From a virus, in IMG/VR virus record IMGVR_UViG_3300047392_000072, positions 1 to 28,883 of that record: 28,883 nucleotides of DNA. One strand, 5' to 3'. Of the stretch, positions 4,248 through 21,353 are shown piece by piece; position 1 is the first letter of the stretch, and each line of letters begins with the position of its first letter. The notes under the pieces were generated by a model. That model did not search any database, was not told where the DNA came from, and was given only the letters and a program-made list of their open reading frames with translations. The position numbers were made by a program, and so were the translations under genes.

Positions 4248-4772
4248 ATGAGTATGAAAAGTGCTGAAAAAAATAAGTCAGAACAATTGCTTGATGTCAA
4301 CGATATATTCAAGTATTTGGATTACAACCCCGAGTCTGGAGTCTTTGTCTGGAAAGTGAAAACTAAGACAAGCAATGTTGGAGATGTCGCTGGTAATACA
4401 AATTGGCGTGGATACACATCAATCTGGATCAATGGCGTTCAATACTATGCCCACAGATTAGCTTGGGCGTTTTGCAATGGTTGCTTTCCTCGCGGAGATA
4501 TTGACCATATCAACGAAAACAAATCAGATAACAGGATTGCGAATCTTAGAACTGCAAGTCGATCCCAAAACATGTTTAACCGAGGCAGGAATAAGAATAA
4601 TACATCTGGGATAAAAGGGGTTGCATTCTGCAAGGCTACAGGAAAATGGCGCGCGCAAATAACCGTTGATAGAAAAAACTTGAACATTGGGCGATTCAAG
4701 ACGAAAGAAGAAGCAGCGAATGCCTACATGGTAAAAGCTCAAGAACTTAGAGGAGAGTTTGCAAAATGCTAA
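4248..4772 (+). CDS. HNH homing-type endonuclease with AP2 DNA-binding domain
   Basis: 174 residues. An HNH_3-type core spans about 67-112, with YAHRLAWA (His69), DHIN (Asp86, His87, Asn89), Asn95 and NLR at 99-101, all in the expected spacing. A C-terminal AP2-type DNA-binding domain spans about 119-170 (SGIKGVAF, KWRAQI, GRFKTKEEAANAY). Such free-standing HNH-AP2 genes are mobile and cut intron- or intergene-less alleles to spread. It sits between the two terminase genes, which are usually adjacent, behind a hairpin. Its stop codon lies inside the start of terL (ATGCTAA), so terL translation is coupled to it. The catalytic residues appear intact. ATG at 4248 was chosen; ATG 4254 is equally possible. 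Confidence 0.9.
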   Translation: MSMKSAEKNKSEQLLDVNDIFKYLDYNPESGVFVWKVKTKTSNVGDVAGNTNWRGYTSIWINGVQYYAHRLAWAFCNGCFPRGDIDHINENKSDNRIANLRTASRSQNMFNRGRNKNNTSGIKGVAFCKATGKWRAQITVDRKNLNIGRFKTKEEAANAYMVKAQELRGEFAKC

Positions 4773-6367
4773 AATGGACAGAACACCCAGTTCTCCCTAT
4801 TCCGACTGATGAGGAGATTTGCTTAATGACTCCAGAGGAATTGATGGAGATTCATCAAATCCGCGAGGAAGCTATTCGCAATGCCATTAAAGATCCGTTC
4901 CGATATGGATGGAAGTTCGAGAACTGGAGAAAGCTAGAAAAGTGCCTTGAGACTAGGAATGAGGCACTTATCAGTGGTGGGAATCGCTCATCGAAAACGC
5001 AGGTCGGGGCTTACTTTGTGGTAAAAGCTGCTATCGAAAATCCAAACTCTGACATATTCTGCTTTGCTCAGAATGCCGAGGTATCTATTCGCCAGCAGCA
5101 AGCTGCCGTGTATGACTGGATGCCAGCCGAGTTTAAGAGTAAGCAGACAAGCCAGAACACCTATCTCTCTTACTCTAGGAAAAACGGATGGACTGACAAC
5201 TCGTTAATCTTGCCAAATGGATCGAGGATTTCATTTAAGACGTATGCTGCGTTTGCGAACAACCAGACCATCCTAGAAGGCGCGGAACTTGGTTCCAAGG
5301 AGGCGACATGGCTGAATATCGGTGCATGGTGCGACGAGATGCTTGGTGGTCCAGAACTAGTCGATACGCTCAGATTTCGACTCGCCACAAGGAATAGTAA
5401 AATGATGCTAACCTTCACTCCGATCTTTGGATATACGGAGCTAATCAAACAGTATCTTGACGGGGCAAAGGTCATTGAAAGCAGAGAAGCCGAGCTACTA
5501 GATGGTGAAATCGTCCCAACAATCCTTGAGTGCAAAAACATCAAGGGGACGGTTCATTACTTCCACTCACAGGACAATCCATTTGGCGGATATGAGCGTA
5601 TTAAGCAGACACTCGCTGGCAAAACGCGAGAGGAGATATTGATTCGAGCATACGGAATCCCGACTAAAGCTGCCGCCACCAAGTTCCCGAAATTCAACAA
5701 GGTGGTAAACGTAGTCGATCCAGAGAAGATCCCCACCACAAACGTCACCAGATACCACATCATCGACCCTGCTGGATCAAAGAACTGGTTCATGTGCTGG
5801 ATTGCCGTGGACGAAACTGGCACGATGTGGGTGTATCGTGAATGGCCTGGAGTCGATGTGGGTGATTGGGCTGAGTGGCGAGGTGGGAAGTGGGTGCCTG
5901 GAGATGGCGCCAAAGGGCAAGGCTACGGCATCCGAGACTACGTTGACCTCATCCAAGAGATGGAAGGCGACGAGGAGATATTCGAGCGTCTGATCGACCC
6001 ACGCCTAGGTGCTGCCAAGTATCAAGTGCAGGACGGATCATCGTCGATTATTGAGGATTTGAACGACATTGGCATGGTCTGCATCCCTGCTCCTGGGCTA
6101 GACATTGATGATGGACTGCAAGCATTGATCGGGAAAATGGCATGGGACACAACTAAGCCGTTGGATTCTGTCAATCGTCCCCATTTCTACGTCAGTTCCG
6201 ACTGTGAGAATATCATCCAAGCATTGTCGGAATACACTGGCGATGGTGGTCTAAAGGAAGCATGGAAAGACCCTATCGATGTTCTGCGCTATGCCGCAAT
6301 CTCAGGAATAGATCATGTTGACAATTCCGTCAGTTTTGTTACAACTCAGGGAGGTGGAGGTTATTAA
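4766..6367 (+). CDS. terL: Terminase large subunit (packaging ATPase/nuclease)
   Basis: 533 residues with both domains complete. The N-terminal ATPase has a Walker A at 71-78 (GGNRSSKT) and a Walker B at 182-191 (WLNIGAWCDE, acidic pair at its end). The C-terminal RNase H-like nuclease carries Asp334 (YHIIDPAG), Asp411 (RLIDPRLG) and Asp502/505 (DPIDVLRY). It pumps DNA into the prohead through the portal and cuts the concatemer. GAGGAG lies about 10 nt before ATG 4766, inside the upstream HNH gene, with a 7-nt overlap. The downstream start at 6369 is almost contiguous, so terL, the 86-residue gene and portal form one operon. Confidence 0.95.
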   Translation: MLKWTEHPVLPIPTDEEICLMTPEELMEIHQIREEAIRNAIKDPFRYGWKFENWRKLEKCLETRNEALISGGNRSSKTQVGAYFVVKAAIENPNSDIFCFAQNAEVSIRQQQAAVYDWMPAEFKSKQTSQNTYLSYSRKNGWTDNSLILPNGSRISFKTYAAFANNQTILEGAELGSKEATWLNIGAWCDEMLGGPELVDTLRFRLATRNSKMMLTFTPIFGYTELIKQYLDGAKVIESREAELLDGEIVPTILECKNIKGTVHYFHSQDNPFGGYERIKQTLAGKTREEILIRAYGIPTKAAATKFPKFNKVVNVVDPEKIPTTNVTRYHIIDPAGSKNWFMCWIAVDETGTMWVYREWPGVDVGDWAEWRGGKWVPGDGAKGQGYGIRDYVDLIQEMEGDEEIFERLIDPRLGAAKYQVQDGSSSIIEDLNDIGMVCIPAPGLDIDDGLQALIGKMAWDTTKPLDSVNRPHFYVSSDCENIIQALSEYTGDGGLKEAWKDPIDVLRYAAISGIDHVDNSVSFVTTQGGGGY

Positions 6368-8717: not shown

Positions 8718-8984
8718 ATGCCAAACAATAAGAAAAAAAAGACCGAATCTGTTAGATATTTGCCAGCAGCACATCCCGATCAAACGCACGTTGTCGGAAA
8801 CGGTTATACTATATATAATCAAGATATGCCAATTCCTGGAAAAAAAGGAAGCATCCAACAAGGACCGCCTGTTAGTGCTATGCCTTACAAAGATTATATG
8901 CAGCGAGTGGAAACCCATAAAGCTAAATACTACAATAAAGAACGAGGCACTCCTTCTTCTACGACTCGCAGGATCATCAAGTAA
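8718..8984 (+). CDS. Small hypothetical protein downstream of portal
   Basis: 88 residues, Lys-rich at both ends, with a Gly/Pro-rich middle and no clear fold or catalytic motif. The A-rich leader before ATG 8718 has no Shine-Dalgarno sequence. Composition is more AT-rich than portal. I do not recognise the family. It heads the run of small proteins between portal and the reversed island. Confidence 0.6.
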   Translation: MPNNKKKKTESVRYLPAAHPDQTHVVGNGYTIYNQDMPIPGKKGSIQQGPPVSAMPYKDYMQRVETHKAKYYNKERGTPSSTTRRIIK

Positions 8985-8995
8985 ATGGTGGTGCA

Positions 8996-9172
8996 ATGAG
9001 AAAGAAGTCCACAGTCAATGCGGCAGGGAACTACACCAAGCCCACCATGAGGAAAGCATTGTTCAAGAAGATCAAAGCTGGAACCAAAGGTGGTGATCCT
9101 GGAGAGTGGAGCGGAAGAAAAGCACAGCTTCTTGCTAAAGAGTATAAGAAGAAAGGCGGGAGCTACCGATGA
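8996..9172 (+). CDS. Conserved 58-residue basic phage protein
   Basis: 58 residues, encoded from ATG 8996 to TGA 9172. The protein contains VNAAGNYTKPTMRK, then IKAGTKGGDPGEWSGRKAQ and ends KGGSYR. This pattern (NAAGNYTKP, GKPGQWSARKAQ, GGGYR) is one I recognise from many cyanophage and other environmental phage genomes, where it is annotated as unknown. It is strongly basic and Gly-rich, consistent with a nucleic-acid-associated or head-linked role, but no function is established to my knowledge. It overlaps the next gene by 4 nt. Confidence 0.8.
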   Translation: MRKKSTVNAAGNYTKPTMRKALFKKIKAGTKGGDPGEWSGRKAQLLAKEYKKKGGSYR

Positions 9173-9968: not shown

Positions 9969-10223
9969 ATGAGAGACTACAAGAAAGAATACGAAGAGTA
10001 TCACGGCAAGCCCAAGCAGATTTCTCGCAGGGCTGGACGCAATGCTGCTCGAGCCAAAGCTGTAAAGCTAGGCATTGCATCTAACGGTGATGGGAAAGAT
10101 GTTCACCACAAGAACAACAATCCAAAGGATAACCGTGCAAGCAACCTAGCCTCTACGCCAGTAAGCAAGAACCGAGGATTCCCTCGCACATCAAAGAATA
10201 AGCCTAAAGGACGACTCAAATGA
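9969..10223 (+). CDS. HNH-like small phage protein
   Basis: 84 residues. The N-terminus MRDYKKEYEEYHGKPKQ and the later GDGKDVHHKNNNPKDN with ASNLASTPVSKNRGF follow the layout of small phage HNH proteins (DVDHKDGNP-NN-PSNLR-----NRS). His-His and the NxxSNL element are present, so a degenerate or minimal HNH fold is likely. It could be a packaging-associated HNH nuclease, as in phages where such proteins sit beside terminase and portal, but at 84 residues activity is uncertain. It ends with a 4-nt overlap into the next gene. Confidence 0.7.
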   Translation: MRDYKKEYEEYHGKPKQISRRAGRNAARAKAVKLGIASNGDGKDVHHKNNNPKDNRASNLASTPVSKNRGFPRTSKNKPKGRLK

Positions 10224-10432
10224 CACCACTACCCAAGCCAACAATCCAGCAGTCCATCGAAGCACTCTCCGACCGTGATGAGTTCAAAGCAATCGTGCAG
10301 TTTATCTCCGATGAGCGTGAACGATTCTTCGGTGACCTTCGCCAATGTATAGACAACAACGAAGTGATGAAGATCGTCGGAAGTGTTGCCACCCTGGACG
10401 AACTTCTCACTTTGTTAAAAAAACAGGCTTGA
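10220..10432 (+). CDS. Conserved 70-residue phage protein, unknown
   Basis: 70 residues, helical and acidic, unlike the basic proteins before it. The pattern ERERFFGDLRQCIDNNEVMK followed by VATLDELLTLL is one I recognise from small phage proteins near scaffold and capsid genes. The start overlaps the previous stop (ATGA). The gene is last in this plus-strand run, and its stop codon overlaps the TTGACA of a promoter-like motif. No function is known to me. Confidence 0.7.
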   Translation: MTPLPKPTIQQSIEALSDRDEFKAIVQFISDERERFFGDLRQCIDNNEVMKIVGSVATLDELLTLLKKQA

Positions 10433-10461
10433 CAAATTAGCGGGAATGTGGTTTCTTTCCC
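10429..10461 (+). promoter_or_regulatory. TTGACAA promoter-like motif before the reversed island
   Basis: TTGACA at 10429-10434 opens a 33-nt stretch that matches 23 of 33 positions of the motif at 12210-12242, including TTGACAA, TTA, CGG and a terminal TTTCCC at identical spacing. The -10 part is poor (GTTTCT at the expected place), so it may be a degenerate or specialised promoter. Any transcript would meet the hairpin at 10494 within about 70 nt. Confidence 0.4.
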
Positions 10462-10493
10462 TTGCTGTTTTGTTTCATCTGCTTGTGTTCAGG

Positions 10494-10532
10494 TATCCGT
10501 AGGGGGTCAAACCTCTACGGATATTCTTTTTT
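10494..10532 (+). terminator. Strong intrinsic terminator (+)
   Basis: Arms 10494-10505 and 10512-10523 form a 12-bp stem with one G-T wobble (TATCCGTAG against CTACGGATA at the base) and a 6-nt loop, followed by TTCTTTTTT at 10524-10532. It ends plus-strand transcription from the packaging genes. The stop codon of the minus-strand gene at 10515 lies inside its 3' arm. Confidence 0.85.
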
Positions 10533-10805
10533 CATCTTGTCCATTTTCTGATTAGCCAAGCTCAGATCGTCCTCCAGTTGCTTGATGCGCTTCAACTGAG
10601 ACTCGATGATCCCATCCGCCAAAGCATTGGTGAACAGTCGCTTGTTCTTAGCTAACGATTCATTGAGTCTGGCGAATGCTTCAATGCACTTGATTGCATC
10701 GTCGATTGCCACACCGATTGTAGTGGTATCGGGCTGGGGAATGCTCTCGTCACCTCTACGCCAAGCATTGAATCGACGTAGGATTTCTATTGTTTGTTGG
10801 TTCAT
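10515..10805 (-). CDS. Small phage protein (RRFNAWRR type), unknown
   Basis: 96 residues. The N-terminal block IEILRRFNAWRRGDESIPQP followed by IGVAIDDAIKCIEAF is a pattern I associate with small early phage proteins that co-occur with the LERELAEA family. The C-terminal half is a coiled coil (QLKRIKQLEDDLSLANQKMDK). The start overlaps the stop of the upstream DUF3310 gene (ATGA), and the RBS (AAAGGAG) lies within that gene's last codons. Function unknown. Confidence 0.7.
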   Translation of the reverse strand: MNQQTIEILRRFNAWRRGDESIPQPDTTTIGVAIDDAIKCIEAFARLNESLAKNKRLFTNALADGIIESQLKRIKQLEDDLSLANQKMDKMKKEYP

Positions 10806-11281
10806 TTCAGTTCTCCTTTCACTGCAGTTAGAAATATTGCTGCACGGTCAATGCTTTTTGGAGTTCCATCTTCATTGATAACATCCGTTAAAATATTTAC
10901 CAGCGCATCGCGTTGCTCCCACGCCTCGGCAAGCTCGCGTTCGAGTTGTTTGGCAAATCGCCATCCTTCGGCTCTCCATTCTTGATCGCACATGGTAACG
11001 CAAGTGATTTGTTTTTCATGCGTCCTTGAGGTTGTTCTGTTTGTATTCATGTTGTTTATTTTGTCATTTGGTTTTTCCATCAGCTTTCGTTTAGCAATCT
11101 CTCTGTCAATATACCATCTCGCCTTCTCCAAGTCTTCGATCGCATCGTTCTTTAAGTCAGCTCTCCAGATGTATTTGATTGCATTGCCAAGGCAAAAGTT
11201 CATGTGTTCCGTGACTTGGATGCACTCAATCTTTGATGGGTGTGCTGTGTAATGTAGTGGGTGATTTACTTTATCATTCAT
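10802..11281 (-). CDS. DUF3310 protein fused to an LERELAEA coiled-coil module
   Basis: 159 residues in two parts. Residues 1-65 match DUF3310 (VNHPLHYTAHPSKIECIQVT, then NAIKYIWRADLKN and DLEKARWYID), a widespread phage protein of unclear nucleotide-related role. After a polar linker, residues about 103-159 match the coiled-coil family encoded 11-12 kb away (AKQLERELAEAWEQRDALV), ending VKGELK. The DNA at 10899-10941 is 40/43 identical to 22224-22266, so the module was copied or shuffled. The C-terminal codons double as the RBS of the next gene. It is the first gene of the reversed island, and a GATAAT -10-like box lies at 11349-11354 without a good -35. Confidence 0.8.
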   Translation of the reverse strand: MNDKVNHPLHYTAHPSKIECIQVTEHMNFCLGNAIKYIWRADLKNDAIEDLEKARWYIDREIAKRKLMEKPNDKINNMNTNRTTSRTHEKQITCVTMCDQEWRAEGWRFAKQLERELAEAWEQRDALVNILTDVINEDGTPKSIDRAAIFLTAVKGELK

Positions 11282-11553
11282 AGTCGTTCATTTTATTTCT
11301 GTACACAGTTAGTCTCATAACCTCCCTAGAGCGCACACGATGAGAAACATTATCTACCATATGCTTTTATGATCCGAAAACCAGCCCCTTAGGAGTCAAC
11401 CTCCTGCCACCTCTGCTTAGGCTCATGGTGACAACACGATGGCAGCTTTCCCGCTTTTCGTGCCTAGTGATGAGTGTGGAAGATTTACGTCTTCTCGCGT
11501 AGCCCTTTCTTTTGGTCTGTAATCGGGGATCGAACAGGGGCATCCATAAAATG
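11282..11553. other. Non-coding stretch upstream of the DUF3310 gene
   Basis: About 270 nt without a credible gene. It contains small hairpins (AGGAG/CTCCT at 11391-11405, GAAGA/TCTTC near 11470-11495, CACGA/TCGTG near 11436-11462). A minus-strand GATAAT at 11349-11354 could be the -10 of the DUF3310 operon, though its -35 is poor. GCCCCT recurs four times between 11384 and 11952. No tRNA could be folded. It may be the long 5' leader of the minus-strand genes or a further small RNA. Confidence 0.4.
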
Positions 11554-11592
11554 AAAAACCCGCCCGAGCTAGCCCCTCAGACGGGTTTTTTT
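11554..11592. terminator. Bidirectional intrinsic terminator
   Basis: The arms AAAACCCG and CGGGTTTT pair, with an inner GAG/CTC stem and a CTAGCCC loop. Seven T follow on the plus strand and five T on the minus strand. The loop sequence GCTAGCCCC (11568-11576) is the exact reverse complement of 11628-11636, which would give a competing structure. Confidence 0.8.
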
Positions 11593-11636
11593 GCCCTCCG
11601 AAGATAGGCAGAAATTCTTATCACAGCGGGGCTAGC
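11568..11636. repeat. 9-bp inverted repeat linking a terminator loop to its flank
   Basis: GCTAGCCCC at 11568-11576 and GGGGCTAGC at 11628-11636 are perfect reverse complements. The first copy is the loop of the terminator at 11554-11592, so pairing would compete with the terminator on a minus-strand transcript that reads past 11700. Confidence 0.6.
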
Positions 11637-11699
11637 GCACGGACAAGAGAGAGATAGACGATAAATCAGAACTTGGCAAGAATTATTTTCAAGAAAGTG

Positions 11700-11744
11700 A
11701 AAAAAATATCCCCCAAGTGTGCTTCAGTGAGAGGCATGGGGGAT
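11700..11744 (-). terminator. Intrinsic terminator of the minus-strand RNA
   Basis: Read on the minus strand, ATCCCCC (11744-11738) pairs with GGGGGAT (11714-11708). An inner stem 11731-11736 / 11720-11725 has one G-T wobble. The sequence then runs ATTTTTTT through 11700. This is a textbook minus-strand terminator and has no T-run on the plus strand. Confidence 0.8.
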
Positions 11745-11966
11745 CTGCTAATAAGGCTGCACCGCCCGCTGAGAGATTCCCAACGCATAGACGATGCAGC
11801 CAGTGTGATGTCACCAAGCTGGAGCTTGTTACCATCAGTCGGAGTGAGATCAGGTCGCTACATCCCGCGATGAAAGCCCCTATGCTCTTGCGAGTCTAAC
11901 AAGGAGTCGGAAAACCGAACCCCGCGATACGTCTTAGTTACGAATGCCCCTCATTGCTCAAACGCA
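11703..11966 (-). ncRNA. Candidate structured non-coding RNA, ~265 nt (or ~445 nt from distal promoter)
   Basis: No gene fits this interval, yet it is bounded by sigma70-like promoters (11972-11999 proximal, 12152-12179 distal) and a minus-strand terminator (11700-11744). In plus coordinates the visible helices are as follows. 11755-11761/11795-11801 is a 7-bp stem enclosing 11763-11766/11790-11793 and 11767-11771/11781-11785. 11806-11810/11833-11837 encloses the 6-bp stem 11815-11820/11823-11828, with a GTAA/GTGA internal loop able to form G-A pairs. 11861-11864/11869-11872 is a short hairpin. 11885-11894 gives a GCAA (GNRA) tetraloop on the minus strand. 11903-11910/11915-11922 is a stem with a four-base loop. 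Most of the RNA can therefore fold into local helices. I cannot match it to a named RNA family. An extended leader for the DUF3310 genes is the main alternative, but the terminator argues against it. Confidence 0.5.
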
Positions 11967-11971
11967 AGGCA

Positions 11972-11999
11972 ATACTATTGCATGGCGCGATATTGTCAA
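11972..11999 (-). promoter_or_regulatory. Proximal minus-strand promoter of the RNA
   Basis: On the minus strand, TTGACA (11999-11994) is followed after 16 nt by TAGTAT (11977-11972), with ATGCA just upstream of the -10. Start of transcription would be near 11965. It shares TTGACAAT-N8-ATGCA-N-TA-NN-AT with the distal promoter 180 nt away. Confidence 0.55.
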
Positions 12000-12151
12000 T
12001 ACCTGATCGAGTGAATGATTCTCCACGCTAGGTACAAAGTTTTATCAGTTTTAGCATTGCCAACAAACAGCCGAATTAACAAGCCGCGCCTTCTCGCACT
12101 CGCAACTCTCAGCATTGTGCGCCTGATGAATGGGTGAATCTTCATGCCGCG

Positions 12152-12179
12152 ATGTTAGTGCATCGAGAACGATTGTCAA
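12152..12179 (-). promoter_or_regulatory. Distal minus-strand promoter of the RNA
   Basis: On the minus strand, TTGACA (12179-12174) is followed after 16 nt by TAACAT (12157-12152), again with ATGCA before the -10. Predicted start near 12145. It lies back-to-back with the plus-strand promoter at 12210. Confidence 0.55.
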
Positions 12180-12209
12180 CATAAGATGAGCATGGGTTGA
12201 TATTTGCTA

Positions 12210-12239
12210 TTGACAAGTTAACGGAATTAGTGCTAATTT
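12210..12239 (+). promoter_or_regulatory. Promoter for the scaffold-capsid operon
   Basis: TTGACA at 12210-12215 is followed by GCTAAT at 12232-12237 (16-nt spacer) or TAATTT at 12234-12239 (18 nt, with an upstream TG). It lies about 40 nt before the scaffold start and is the only good promoter seen for the capsid operon, which is cut off from the packaging genes by terminators. Confidence 0.6.
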
Positions 12240-12279
12240 CCCCTCGATCGCACCGCCGAGCGTAAATGGCGTTTCCATT

Positions 12280-13315: not shown

Positions 13316-14311
13316 ATGCCTATCTCAAATACTTATCAACCGTCAGCCCCAGCCGCTAAAACTGGCACGGGTTCCGCCGTTTCCAACCGCGAGGATCTCA
13401 GCAATGAACTTGCTATCCTTGCTCCAGAAGAAACTCCCATCCTGTCCCTTTGCAGCAAAGGCAAAGCAAGTGCCACTTACACTGAGTGGACTGTTGACTC
13501 CCTTGCTTCTCCTGCTACCACTGGTATCAGCGAAGGTTCGGATGTGACTTCGTTCTCGGACAAGTTCGCAGATCGCGCTCGCCTTGGTAACTACATCCAA
13601 TTGATGCGCCGTGACTACATCGTGTCGAACCTGCAACAAGCTGTGTCAAGCGTTGGTCCTGCTAACGTGGCACAAGCCGAAGCTAAGTCCATGCGCGAAA
13701 TCAAACGCGACATCGAAGCAACCATCGCCTCCGATAACGAAATGACGGTTGAGAACGGTGCTGGCACTCCTTACGGAATGCGTGGTCTTGGCAAGTGGAT
13801 TCAGTCCTCCGCCCAAGCAACGAACCCAGTTCCTGCTGCATACCGCACTCCAACTGGTTCGATTATCTCGTCCACCATCAGCGAAAGCTCCTTCAACTCC
13901 TTGATTGGTTCGATCTTCGCTAAGAACGGTGAGATGAACAGCTTGACGCTTGTTGCTAACGTGGCACTTCGCCAGCTTATCAGCAACTTCACCCGCGCCC
14001 AACCTTCGTCTGCTGGTGTTACCTACCACGTTAACCAAGAAGCCACGAGCAAGCAGATCACCTTGTCGGTGAACCTGTATGACTCCGACTTCGGTCTGGT
14101 TAAGATCGTGAACGGCAACCCAAGCTGTATGCCAACTGGTTCGACCAACGTAGGCTACGTCCTCAATCCTAAGTATCTGGGCTTCAACACCCTGATCCCG
14201 ATGGGTGCTACTCGCCTTGAGAACCAAGGTGGTGGTGAGCGTGGATTCGTCGATGTTGCTGGCACCCTGTGCGTCAAGCATCCCCAAGCCCACGGCAAAA
14301 TCGCTTACTAA
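13316..14311 (+). CDS. Major capsid protein, SU10/DUF5309 type
   Basis: 331 residues, HK97-fold capsid family of the phage SU10 type. Recognisable blocks are LAILAPEETPILSL near residue 35, then ATYTEWTVDSLASP, the middle MREIKRDIEATIASDNE, and a C-terminal YLGFNTLIPMGATR. It builds the icosahedral shell. Strongly biased toward C-ending codons compared with nearby genes, as expected for a highly expressed product. It has an A-rich leader without Shine-Dalgarno and sits directly after the scaffold and before a terminator-bounded decoration gene. Confidence 0.88.
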   Translation: MPISNTYQPSAPAAKTGTGSAVSNREDLSNELAILAPEETPILSLCSKGKASATYTEWTVDSLASPATTGISEGSDVTSFSDKFADRARLGNYIQLMRRDYIVSNLQQAVSSVGPANVAQAEAKSMREIKRDIEATIASDNEMTVENGAGTPYGMRGLGKWIQSSAQATNPVPAAYRTPTGSIISSTISESSFNSLIGSIFAKNGEMNSLTLVANVALRQLISNFTRAQPSSAGVTYHVNQEATSKQITLSVNLYDSDFGLVKIVNGNPSCMPTGSTNVGYVLNPKYLGFNTLIPMGATRLENQGGGERGFVDVAGTLCVKHPQAHGKIAY

Positions 14312-20094: not shown

Positions 20095-20679
20095 TTATAA
20101 GTAATAAACATAAGTATGCTTTCCTGCGGTTTGCTTGTAAAATGCCTCACCTGTTTCTAAAAGCAATTTAAGTCTCTTTGCAAAAGGCTTTAGTTTTCCT
20201 TTGTATGTAGTGCGTATGGTCTTATCGTGAAACTTTTTTTCTCCATAATAGATAACCTTAGCACCTTTAACATCTTCTAATTGTTTAAAATTGCTGGCTT
20301 TATAGATAATCCCAGAGTGTCCATGTTCTTTATCTGCATAACTTACAACAATTTTGCCTCCCCAATCCTTCCTGAGGAGTCTTAACGATTTTCCGATAAA
20401 GAAACTTTCAGCATTGCGAGGAGTAGCATCAACGCAGCAAAGTCTGCGAAGTTCAATCACTTGGCTTGGATCTGAAGAGAATCTTTTCCATTGGTTTGCC
20501 ATAGCCATTTTGCCATAGAACATAGCTCCCTTCATTGCGCCATACGCATCAAATAAGGCATAACAATAATCTGCTATGCACCCATTTATGCTTTTAGAGT
20601 AATGCCATGTTTCTATAAAATTCGCAATATCGCTTCTGCTGACGAGTCTAACTTTCCAATTTTTCAAAGTTGTATTCAT
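20095..20679 (-). CDS. Mom-like DNA modification protein (GNAT fold)
   Basis: 194 residues from ATG 20679. In-frame starts at 20766 and 20799 would add up to 40 residues that look less conserved. Family blocks in order are FIETWHYSKSINGC, GAMFYGKMAM, VIELRRLCCVD, RNAESFFIGKSLRLLRKD, VVSYADKEHGHSGIIYKASN. This is the pattern of phage Mu Mom-type proteins, which add a carbamoylmethyl group to adenine in DNA and protect against restriction. The gene is distinctly AT-rich against its neighbours and has no coupled overlap at its 3' end, so it looks like a recent acquisition. Confidence 0.75.
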   Translation of the reverse strand: MNTTLKNWKVRLVSRSDIANFIETWHYSKSINGCIADYCYALFDAYGAMKGAMFYGKMAMANQWKRFSSDPSQVIELRRLCCVDATPRNAESFFIGKSLRLLRKDWGGKIVVSYADKEHGHSGIIYKASNFKQLEDVKGAKVIYYGEKKFHDKTIRTTYKGKLKPFAKRLKLLLETGEAFYKQTAGKHTYVYYL

Positions 20680-20771
20680 TTCAGGATTGCGTTTTTGCTC
20701 TTGCCAGTCAAAGATGCCTCCATCTGTGAATATCAAATCATTGCAATATGTATCATTATTTAGCATACCGT

Positions 20772-21353
20772 TTATGATTTTCTTCTGAATGATTCCCATG
20801 TGAATGCCAGCTTTGCTCCGTTCTCCTCGATCCTGTCAATCACGGCAGGGGATAGCGTGGATGCTAGCTTCTCCCATGAGTAGTTCGAGATGAGGATCGT
20901 CGGCATATCTGCGGCGTATCGCGCATCAATGATGGCAGTGAGTTGTCTGTCTTCGTATGGCGTTTCACCACGCTCCTGGACTTCATCAATAACCAGCAAT
21001 GCTGCCTCGCAATAATCCGATACCACTTCCTTCTCTGACTTCTTTGCCCCAGAGATGTAGGTGGACTTGATCGTCGAGAACAGATTGACTGCTGTTGTGT
21101 AGACCATCGGACGCTTCTTGTATGTCGTCGTCCATCCCTGCTCGCCTGTGCTGATGTTAGGACGCTTGGACTTATGCGCCCGAGCTACCTCCCATGCCAT
21201 GCGGGTCTTGCCTGTGCCGTATCCTCCGTAGAGAATCGTGATCCCACCTTCATCCGTGGTAGCGAGTGCCTTGGCGTAGTTTGCCAACCACCCTGCTCCC
21301 CCTGCTGGCGGAGCATCGTCGTATCGTTTCGGAAATCCTCTGAGTGTATTCAT
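20772..21353 (-). CDS. DnaC-like helicase loader, AAA+ ATPase
   Basis: 193 residues. Walker A at 43-50 (GGYGTGKT), Walker B at about 119-124 (LLVIDE), sensor-1-type Asn in PTILISNYS and an Arg-containing DRIEE near the end. Size and motif spacing match DnaC/IstB-type loaders that place the replicative helicase. No helicase or polymerase is visible in this window, so the phage may use host ones or carry them elsewhere. The start overlaps the stop of the upstream ribbon-helix-helix-like gene. Confidence 0.85.
   Translation of the reverse strand: MNTLRGFPKRYDDAPPAGGAGWLANYAKALATTDEGGITILYGGYGTGKTRMAWEVARAHKSKRPNISTGEQGWTTTYKKRPMVYTTAVNLFSTIKSTYISGAKKSEKEVVSDYCEAALLVIDEVQERGETPYEDRQLTAIIDARYAADMPTILISNYSWEKLASTLSPAVIDRIEENGAKLAFTWESFRRKS

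Follow-up and report, generated by a model that had tools for sequence, protein, structure and literature searches.

A predicted two-part phage RNA gene combining a new structured module with an orphan abiF antitoxin hairpin

The RNA locus and its surroundings

The analysed DNA (the window) is the entire IMG/VR virus record of 28,883 bases and encodes a phage with a large terminase at 4766-6367 and an SU10-type major capsid protein at 13316-14311. The stretch at 11282-12279, flanked by a DUF3310 gene and the capsid operon, lacks convincing genes, in agreement with the initial claim; it holds no open reading frame of at least 70 amino acids, and neither tRNA nor tmRNA genes were found in the window. 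The original prediction, which placed a structured minus-strand RNA here, had named a conserved reading frame as evidence against it. No such frame was found across the RNA locus, neither in the list of open reading frames nor in a near relative with out-of-frame indels at this site. Direct BLAST of the noncoding region against phage and plasmid records gave no match.

The wider interval between a 70-aa gene (10220-10432) and the capsid operon, 10433-12200 in the window, varies from about 160 to more than 1000 bp among relatives and carries different minus-strand genes, i.e. it represents a cargo hotspot. In the relative L103 the RNA cassette is absent altogether. The noncoding part at 11291-11530, which shows no energy signal, is nearly identical in L103, and the neighbouring part at 11535-11700 about 72% identical. 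A terminator-like, probably bidirectional 15-bp inverted repeat, AAAAACCCG...CGGGTTTTT, lies at 11554-11590. On the plus strand, the 5' leader of the capsid operon contains CGCACCGCCGAGCGTAAATGGCG (12249-12271) just 3' of a TTGACA promoter with its -35 box at 12210. This sequence is almost identical in about 100 relatives, while promoter spacer and flanks diverge, and the ATG has no preceding SD sequence; it is possibly a leader element. The early region of the window harbours a Mom-like DNA modification gene (PF25680) at 20095-20799 on the minus strand.

Judged from its sequence, the minus strand from 11999 to 11700 is a structured two-part RNA gene. All elements named beforehand, comprising both promoters, the nested stem, the GTAA/GTGA hairpin, the terminal hairpin and the T7 tract, were found on the minus strand where they had been placed. 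The inner sigma-70-like promoter TTGACA-16-TAGTAT lies at 11972-11999, and a second, weakly supported promoter-like site TTGACA-16-TAACAT at 12152-12179. The number of promoters of this design is not above chance (3 found, 3.0 expected). Comparative support exists for the inner one only, of which TTGACA is kept 47-48 nt upstream of the conserved 5' module (see below) in L083/L167 and L160. Of the two transcript lengths that had been considered, the RNA of about 265 nt is backed by compensatory base changes and by homologues in unrelated phages, whereas the RNA of about 445 nt is unsupported, because no structure was detected by folding energy in 11966-12145.

Compared with shuffled sequences, the folding energy of the 271-nt minus strand corresponds to z -3.3 and that of the plus strand to -0.8. 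This signal is due to 11748-11840 (z -5.2), a region with the hairpin GAUGGUAACAAGCUCCAGCUUGGUGACAUC with its GUAA/GUGA internal loop (about 11807-11836), which occurs with one loop change in the relative L002, and the nested stem GGCUGCAUCGUC...GGCGGUGCAGCC (11755-11801), in which a C-G pair of the window is replaced by U-A in L002 (11764/11792). The 5' part at 11840-11962 reaches a z of only 0.15, hence it would be missed by folding energy alone and is supported by covariation instead. The RNA is predicted to end in a stem at 11744-11708 followed by a T7 tract at 11706-11700, the GC-rich stem and U tract of an intrinsic terminator.

The terminal hairpin as divergent abiF RNA

This terminal stem had been described as a clean terminator, which holds for the stem and the U tract; its identity as an abiF antitoxin hairpin had been missed. 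An Rfam search at a permissive threshold matched abiF RNA (RF03085) over its full length at 11743-11708 of the minus strand with 33.0 bits (E 4.9e-4), i.e. below the curated cut-off of 37 bits. The alignment spans positions 1-37, all consensus pairs are standard, and the outer stem, the inner 3-bp stem and the conserved letters are present. The loop deviates, with the triplet ACU for AAC and GAAGC for GAUGC. Matches to CRISPR-DR29 and sok in the permissive search were at chance level and have been dismissed.

The corresponding hairpins of relatives scored 33.0 (L002), 29.5 (L083), 44.4 (L193) and 42.4 bits (L210). The hairpin of L083 has a different stem sequence that is still paired by compensation. 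The hairpin of L210, ATCCCCCATGCCTCTCAACGATGCACACTTGGGGGAT, exceeds the cut-off and is situated at another genome position than that of the window, which differs from it solely in the loop (CACTGAAG for CAACGATG). L210 lies on the same contig as L045, and the capsid protein of L045 is 95% identical to that of the window. The 33.0-bit match together with the near-identical L210 hairpin above the cut-off identifies the terminal hairpin as a divergent abiF hairpin. The deviant loop may make the window copy less effective, and in the window terminator use is probably a second function of the stem.

A new 5' module and its coupling to the hairpin

The 5' part of the RNA (11835-11970) folds into a three-way-junction module. 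This GAGGG module comprises the stem P1, which is weak in the window (UGAG/CUCA, only about 4 bp), an internal loop of CAAU-GAGGG opposite AGCGACCUG, the stem P2 (GCAU/AUGU), the hairpin CGU-AACUAA-GACG, P3 and a variable domain. Comparison of homologues revealed the conserved core GAGGGGCATTCGTAACTAAGACGT at 11929-11952 and the conserved AGCGACCTG at 11851-11859, the latter on the 3' side of the internal loop. A scan with GAGGG-N4-TCGTNACTAAGACGT yielded 14 viral stretches, mostly from unrelated phages, and the set was widened by three further scans; after removal of chance matches to looser patterns (L173-L178, L183), 25 distinct sequences were kept, mostly from unrelated uncultivated phages. 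CANNGAGGG, the CACUAAG hairpin and AGCGACCUG are near-invariant.

The original prediction had asked for compensatory base changes in homologues, and such changes were found in P2, in the nested stem and in the abiF stems. The full module structure has a covariation score of 0.593, compared with 0.200 for shuffled and at most 0.25 for slid controls. In P2, 99% of the cells are paired, and a single position can show as many as five pair types; for instance, GCAU/AUGU of the window is replaced by CAUC/GAUG in L002 with pairing kept. Each of the eight pairs of P1 has changed on either strand of the stem, and RNAalifold recovered P1 and P2 unaided. A covariance model of the module (R1) gives 88.3 bits for the window and 80 bits for L194, a sequence outside the training set. 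The Rfam covariance search with the module found no family over cut-off, which agrees with the earlier statement that the RNA could not be matched to GOLLD or ROOL. By its homologues and their covariation, the 5' module represents a hitherto undescribed family of phage RNAs whose core is near-invariant, in line with the expectation that a structured RNA new to phages would be found. When 84,980 bacterial genomes were scanned twice with exact patterns, no match was obtained, the zero of the second scan having to be taken cautiously, because about 7 chance matches were expected.

The module and the abiF hairpin recur together in at least 14 further viral contigs. The succession of AGCGACCTG and, 18-48 nt later, the abiF core was found in 14 contigs, with less than one expected, and all 14 are matched by the module model. 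In L193, a phage with a different terminase, the module is followed about a dozen bases past P1 by its abiF hairpin with an own U tract. Three of these contigs, L331, L335 and L336, retain of the module only P1, P2 and the internal loop between them, and this suggests that the functional core is the GAGGG/AGCGACCUG internal loop. The composite RNA lies just upstream of prohead protease, decoration and capsid genes in L327, L334 and L339, as read from the translations by inspection, and it likewise precedes the capsid operon in the window. In L083 the two parts seem to be separated: the module ends at a stem equivalent to the nested stem, with TTTTT directly after it, and upstream of the abiF hairpin there is an additional TTGACA-17-TAGTGT motif. 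In L329, two module copies are present (5841-6003 and 8833-8996, minus strand), and only the first precedes an abiF hairpin in the stretches read.

It could be argued that AbiF is not the target and that the composite RNA instead addresses another conserved factor, such as a host RNase, the ribosome or the packaging motor, its resemblance to abiF RNA being due to a shared RNA-binding protein. The near-invariant internal loop would fit this explanation, and so would the occurrence of the module without abiF hairpin in 28 of the 32 searched records that have it, including copies that sit within tRNA clusters in several phages. However, the hairpin motif is defined by AbiF loci and was found at such a locus in our plasmid control (see below), and the module copies share neither a common gene neighbour nor a consistent association with packaging. 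We consider this explanation unlikely.

Orphan abiF hairpins among phages

The abiF hairpin is not restricted to the composite RNA. The 17-base abiF core was found in at least 120 viral contigs, with about 7 expected, and the number of viral contigs with an orphan abiF hairpin is at least 111. Among the 120 matches listed, 94 have a flanking stem of at least 6 bp, compared with 7.5% of random positions, and these stems comprise 52 distinct arm pairs. The inner pair, which was outside the selection pattern, forms in 56 of 63 distinct hairpins among these listed matches as U-A, A-U or C-G, and in five hairpins the C-G pair of the loop becomes U-A. A search of 49 hairpin-bearing viral records, among them the window and many fragments, revealed no Abi_2 (PF07751) toxin gene. 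As a control, the Phocaeicola plasmid L325 carries an abiF hairpin (59 bits) with an Abi_2 gene (E 6.9e-50) 20 nt downstream.

The abiF consensus is matched by 75 phage records of GenBank, and Acj61, S-SZBM1, Thibault, CRP-143, PZL-Ah8, T7-Ah and CGphi29 all exceed the cut-off with 50-58 bits. The isolated carriers, lytic phages with hairpins above the cut-off among them, include Acinetobacter T4-like, Aeromonas T7-like and Roseobacter phages as well as cyano- and mycobacteriophages, with several copies among capsid genes. The hairpin of CRP-143 lies between the scaffold and capsid genes. In the Aeromonas T7-like phages a T7-type promoter (...CTATAGGG) is followed by the hairpin and then by the capsid assembly gene, and the hairpin of PZL-Ah8 is located 3' of the T7-type promoter CCCTGACTATAGGG and 5' of its capsid assembly gene. 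AbiF proteins are encoded by temperate phages of Streptococcus, Clostridioides, Lactococcus and others in GenBank, and by organism name these phages are nearly disjoint from those with the abiF hairpin. According to the title of a reference cited in PMC12737573, the lactococcal phage sk1 carries a region protecting against AbiF; an abiF hairpin was not found in sk1.

Two other explanations have to be weighed against this distribution. The hairpin might have been taken from AbiF loci and now do no more in phages than terminate transcription or direct RNA processing, with an unrelated role of the 5' module. Several hairpins are situated directly 3' of a gene, and in the window, L083, L193, L203 and L210 a U tract follows. 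However, a strong U tract was found in just 37 of the 120 viral copies listed, some copies lie in 5' leaders, and the stems vary freely around conserved letters of loop and bulge, a conservation that a terminator would not need; hence, we regard this explanation as not very likely. Alternatively, the phage might once have captured an AbiF toxin-antitoxin locus, of which the toxin gene is gone and the window RNA is a decaying remnant, as its degenerate loop and sub-cut-off score would suggest. This possibility is disfavoured and appears highly improbable, because many unrelated phages without toxin remnant have orphan hairpins that reach or exceed the cut-off, their stems are maintained by compensatory changes, and their placement among capsid genes is repeated.

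A putative antitoxin mimic and its relation to known systems

The occurrence of a toxin-less antidote hairpin in many unrelated viruses suggests that bacterial immunity is disarmed by a decoy RNA. Our best reading of the sequence evidence is that the RNA probably is an antitoxin mimic neutralising a host AbiF-type toxin. The abiF RNA is the antitoxin of the HEPN RNase AbiF, and in C. difficile it binds the toxin directly and thereby neutralises it both in cis and in trans (PMC12373285); a PbAbiF-RNA structure has been described in a review (PMC12737573). The window hairpin is phage-encoded, antitoxin-like and has no cognate toxin gene, the features of an antitoxin mimic, its function being putative. 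Mimicry of a type III antitoxin by a phage RNA has been proven for pseudo-ToxI of phage PhiTE (PMC3475682), which serves as precedent for the present proposal by comparison.

In such a scenario, the phage would make the RNA of about 265 nt during infection, and its 3' hairpin would copy the antitoxin RNA that normally keeps the ribonuclease toxin inactive and would thereby bind AbiF. An abundant decoy might hold a putative host AbiF bound and inactive once infection disturbs the host antitoxin supply, so that abortive infection would fail to the benefit of the phage. The same hairpin would also terminate transcription. The 5' module represents a separate phage RNA domain that has repeatedly travelled with the hairpin; it may act as decoy for a second defence factor or as a stabilising or protective 5' cap. 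More tentatively, the composite could be a modular RNA counter-defence gene of many lineages, in which an orphan antitoxin hairpin of the AbiF type, frequently located between capsid genes, is combined with a module decoying a second RNA-dependent defence. The suggestion of a virion role found no support; the counter-defence role, which had not been considered initially, fits better. Arguments against antitoxin mimicry are the sub-cut-off score of the window hairpin, its deviant loop triplet and the frequent occurrence of the module without the hairpin. Moreover, a single abiF motif is present here, compared with two in the natural AbiF antitoxins studied so far (PMC12373285).

AbiF is the proposed ancestor of Cas13, and to our knowledge little is known about how phages escape from it. 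If the proposal is true, RNA mimicry of abortive infection would be a general strategy instead of one example, since toxin-less hairpins span T4-like, T7-like, cyano-, myco- and uncultivated phages and in some cases have the most strongly expressed genes as neighbours. The abiF RNA, the AbiF antitoxins, RNA antitoxin mimicry and a solitary abiF in cyanophage S-CREM1 (PMC9964418) are already known. With regard to the open-access literature searched, three points are apparently new, namely the 5' module, the fact that it is coupled to abiF, and how widely and at which sites toxin-less abiF hairpins occur in phages.

GOLLD and ROOL are likewise structured phage RNAs that sometimes occur near tRNA genes, but the window RNA is far smaller, has another architecture and no match to them in Rfam. 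The lytic cyanophage S-CREM1 also carries an orphan abiF hairpin, which was found by Rfam; the part of its description considered here mentions neither a 5' module nor a decoy proposal nor recurrence across phages (PMC9964418). The AbiF/AbiFr type III toxin-antitoxin system shares the hairpin of 36-37 nt with its outer stem, inner 3-bp stem and the letters CCUCU...GC.CA, whereas the phage RNA occurs without Abi_2 gene, in single copy and fused to the new 5' module, with the window copy below cut-off. Finally, pseudo-ToxI of PhiTE is likewise a non-coding RNA of a phage, is similar to a type III antitoxin and has been shown to suppress abortive infection (PMC3475682). It differs in addressing the ToxN toxin family by a pseudoknot repeat, whereas the RNA described here comprises one hairpin that is very widespread and is known from sequence alone.
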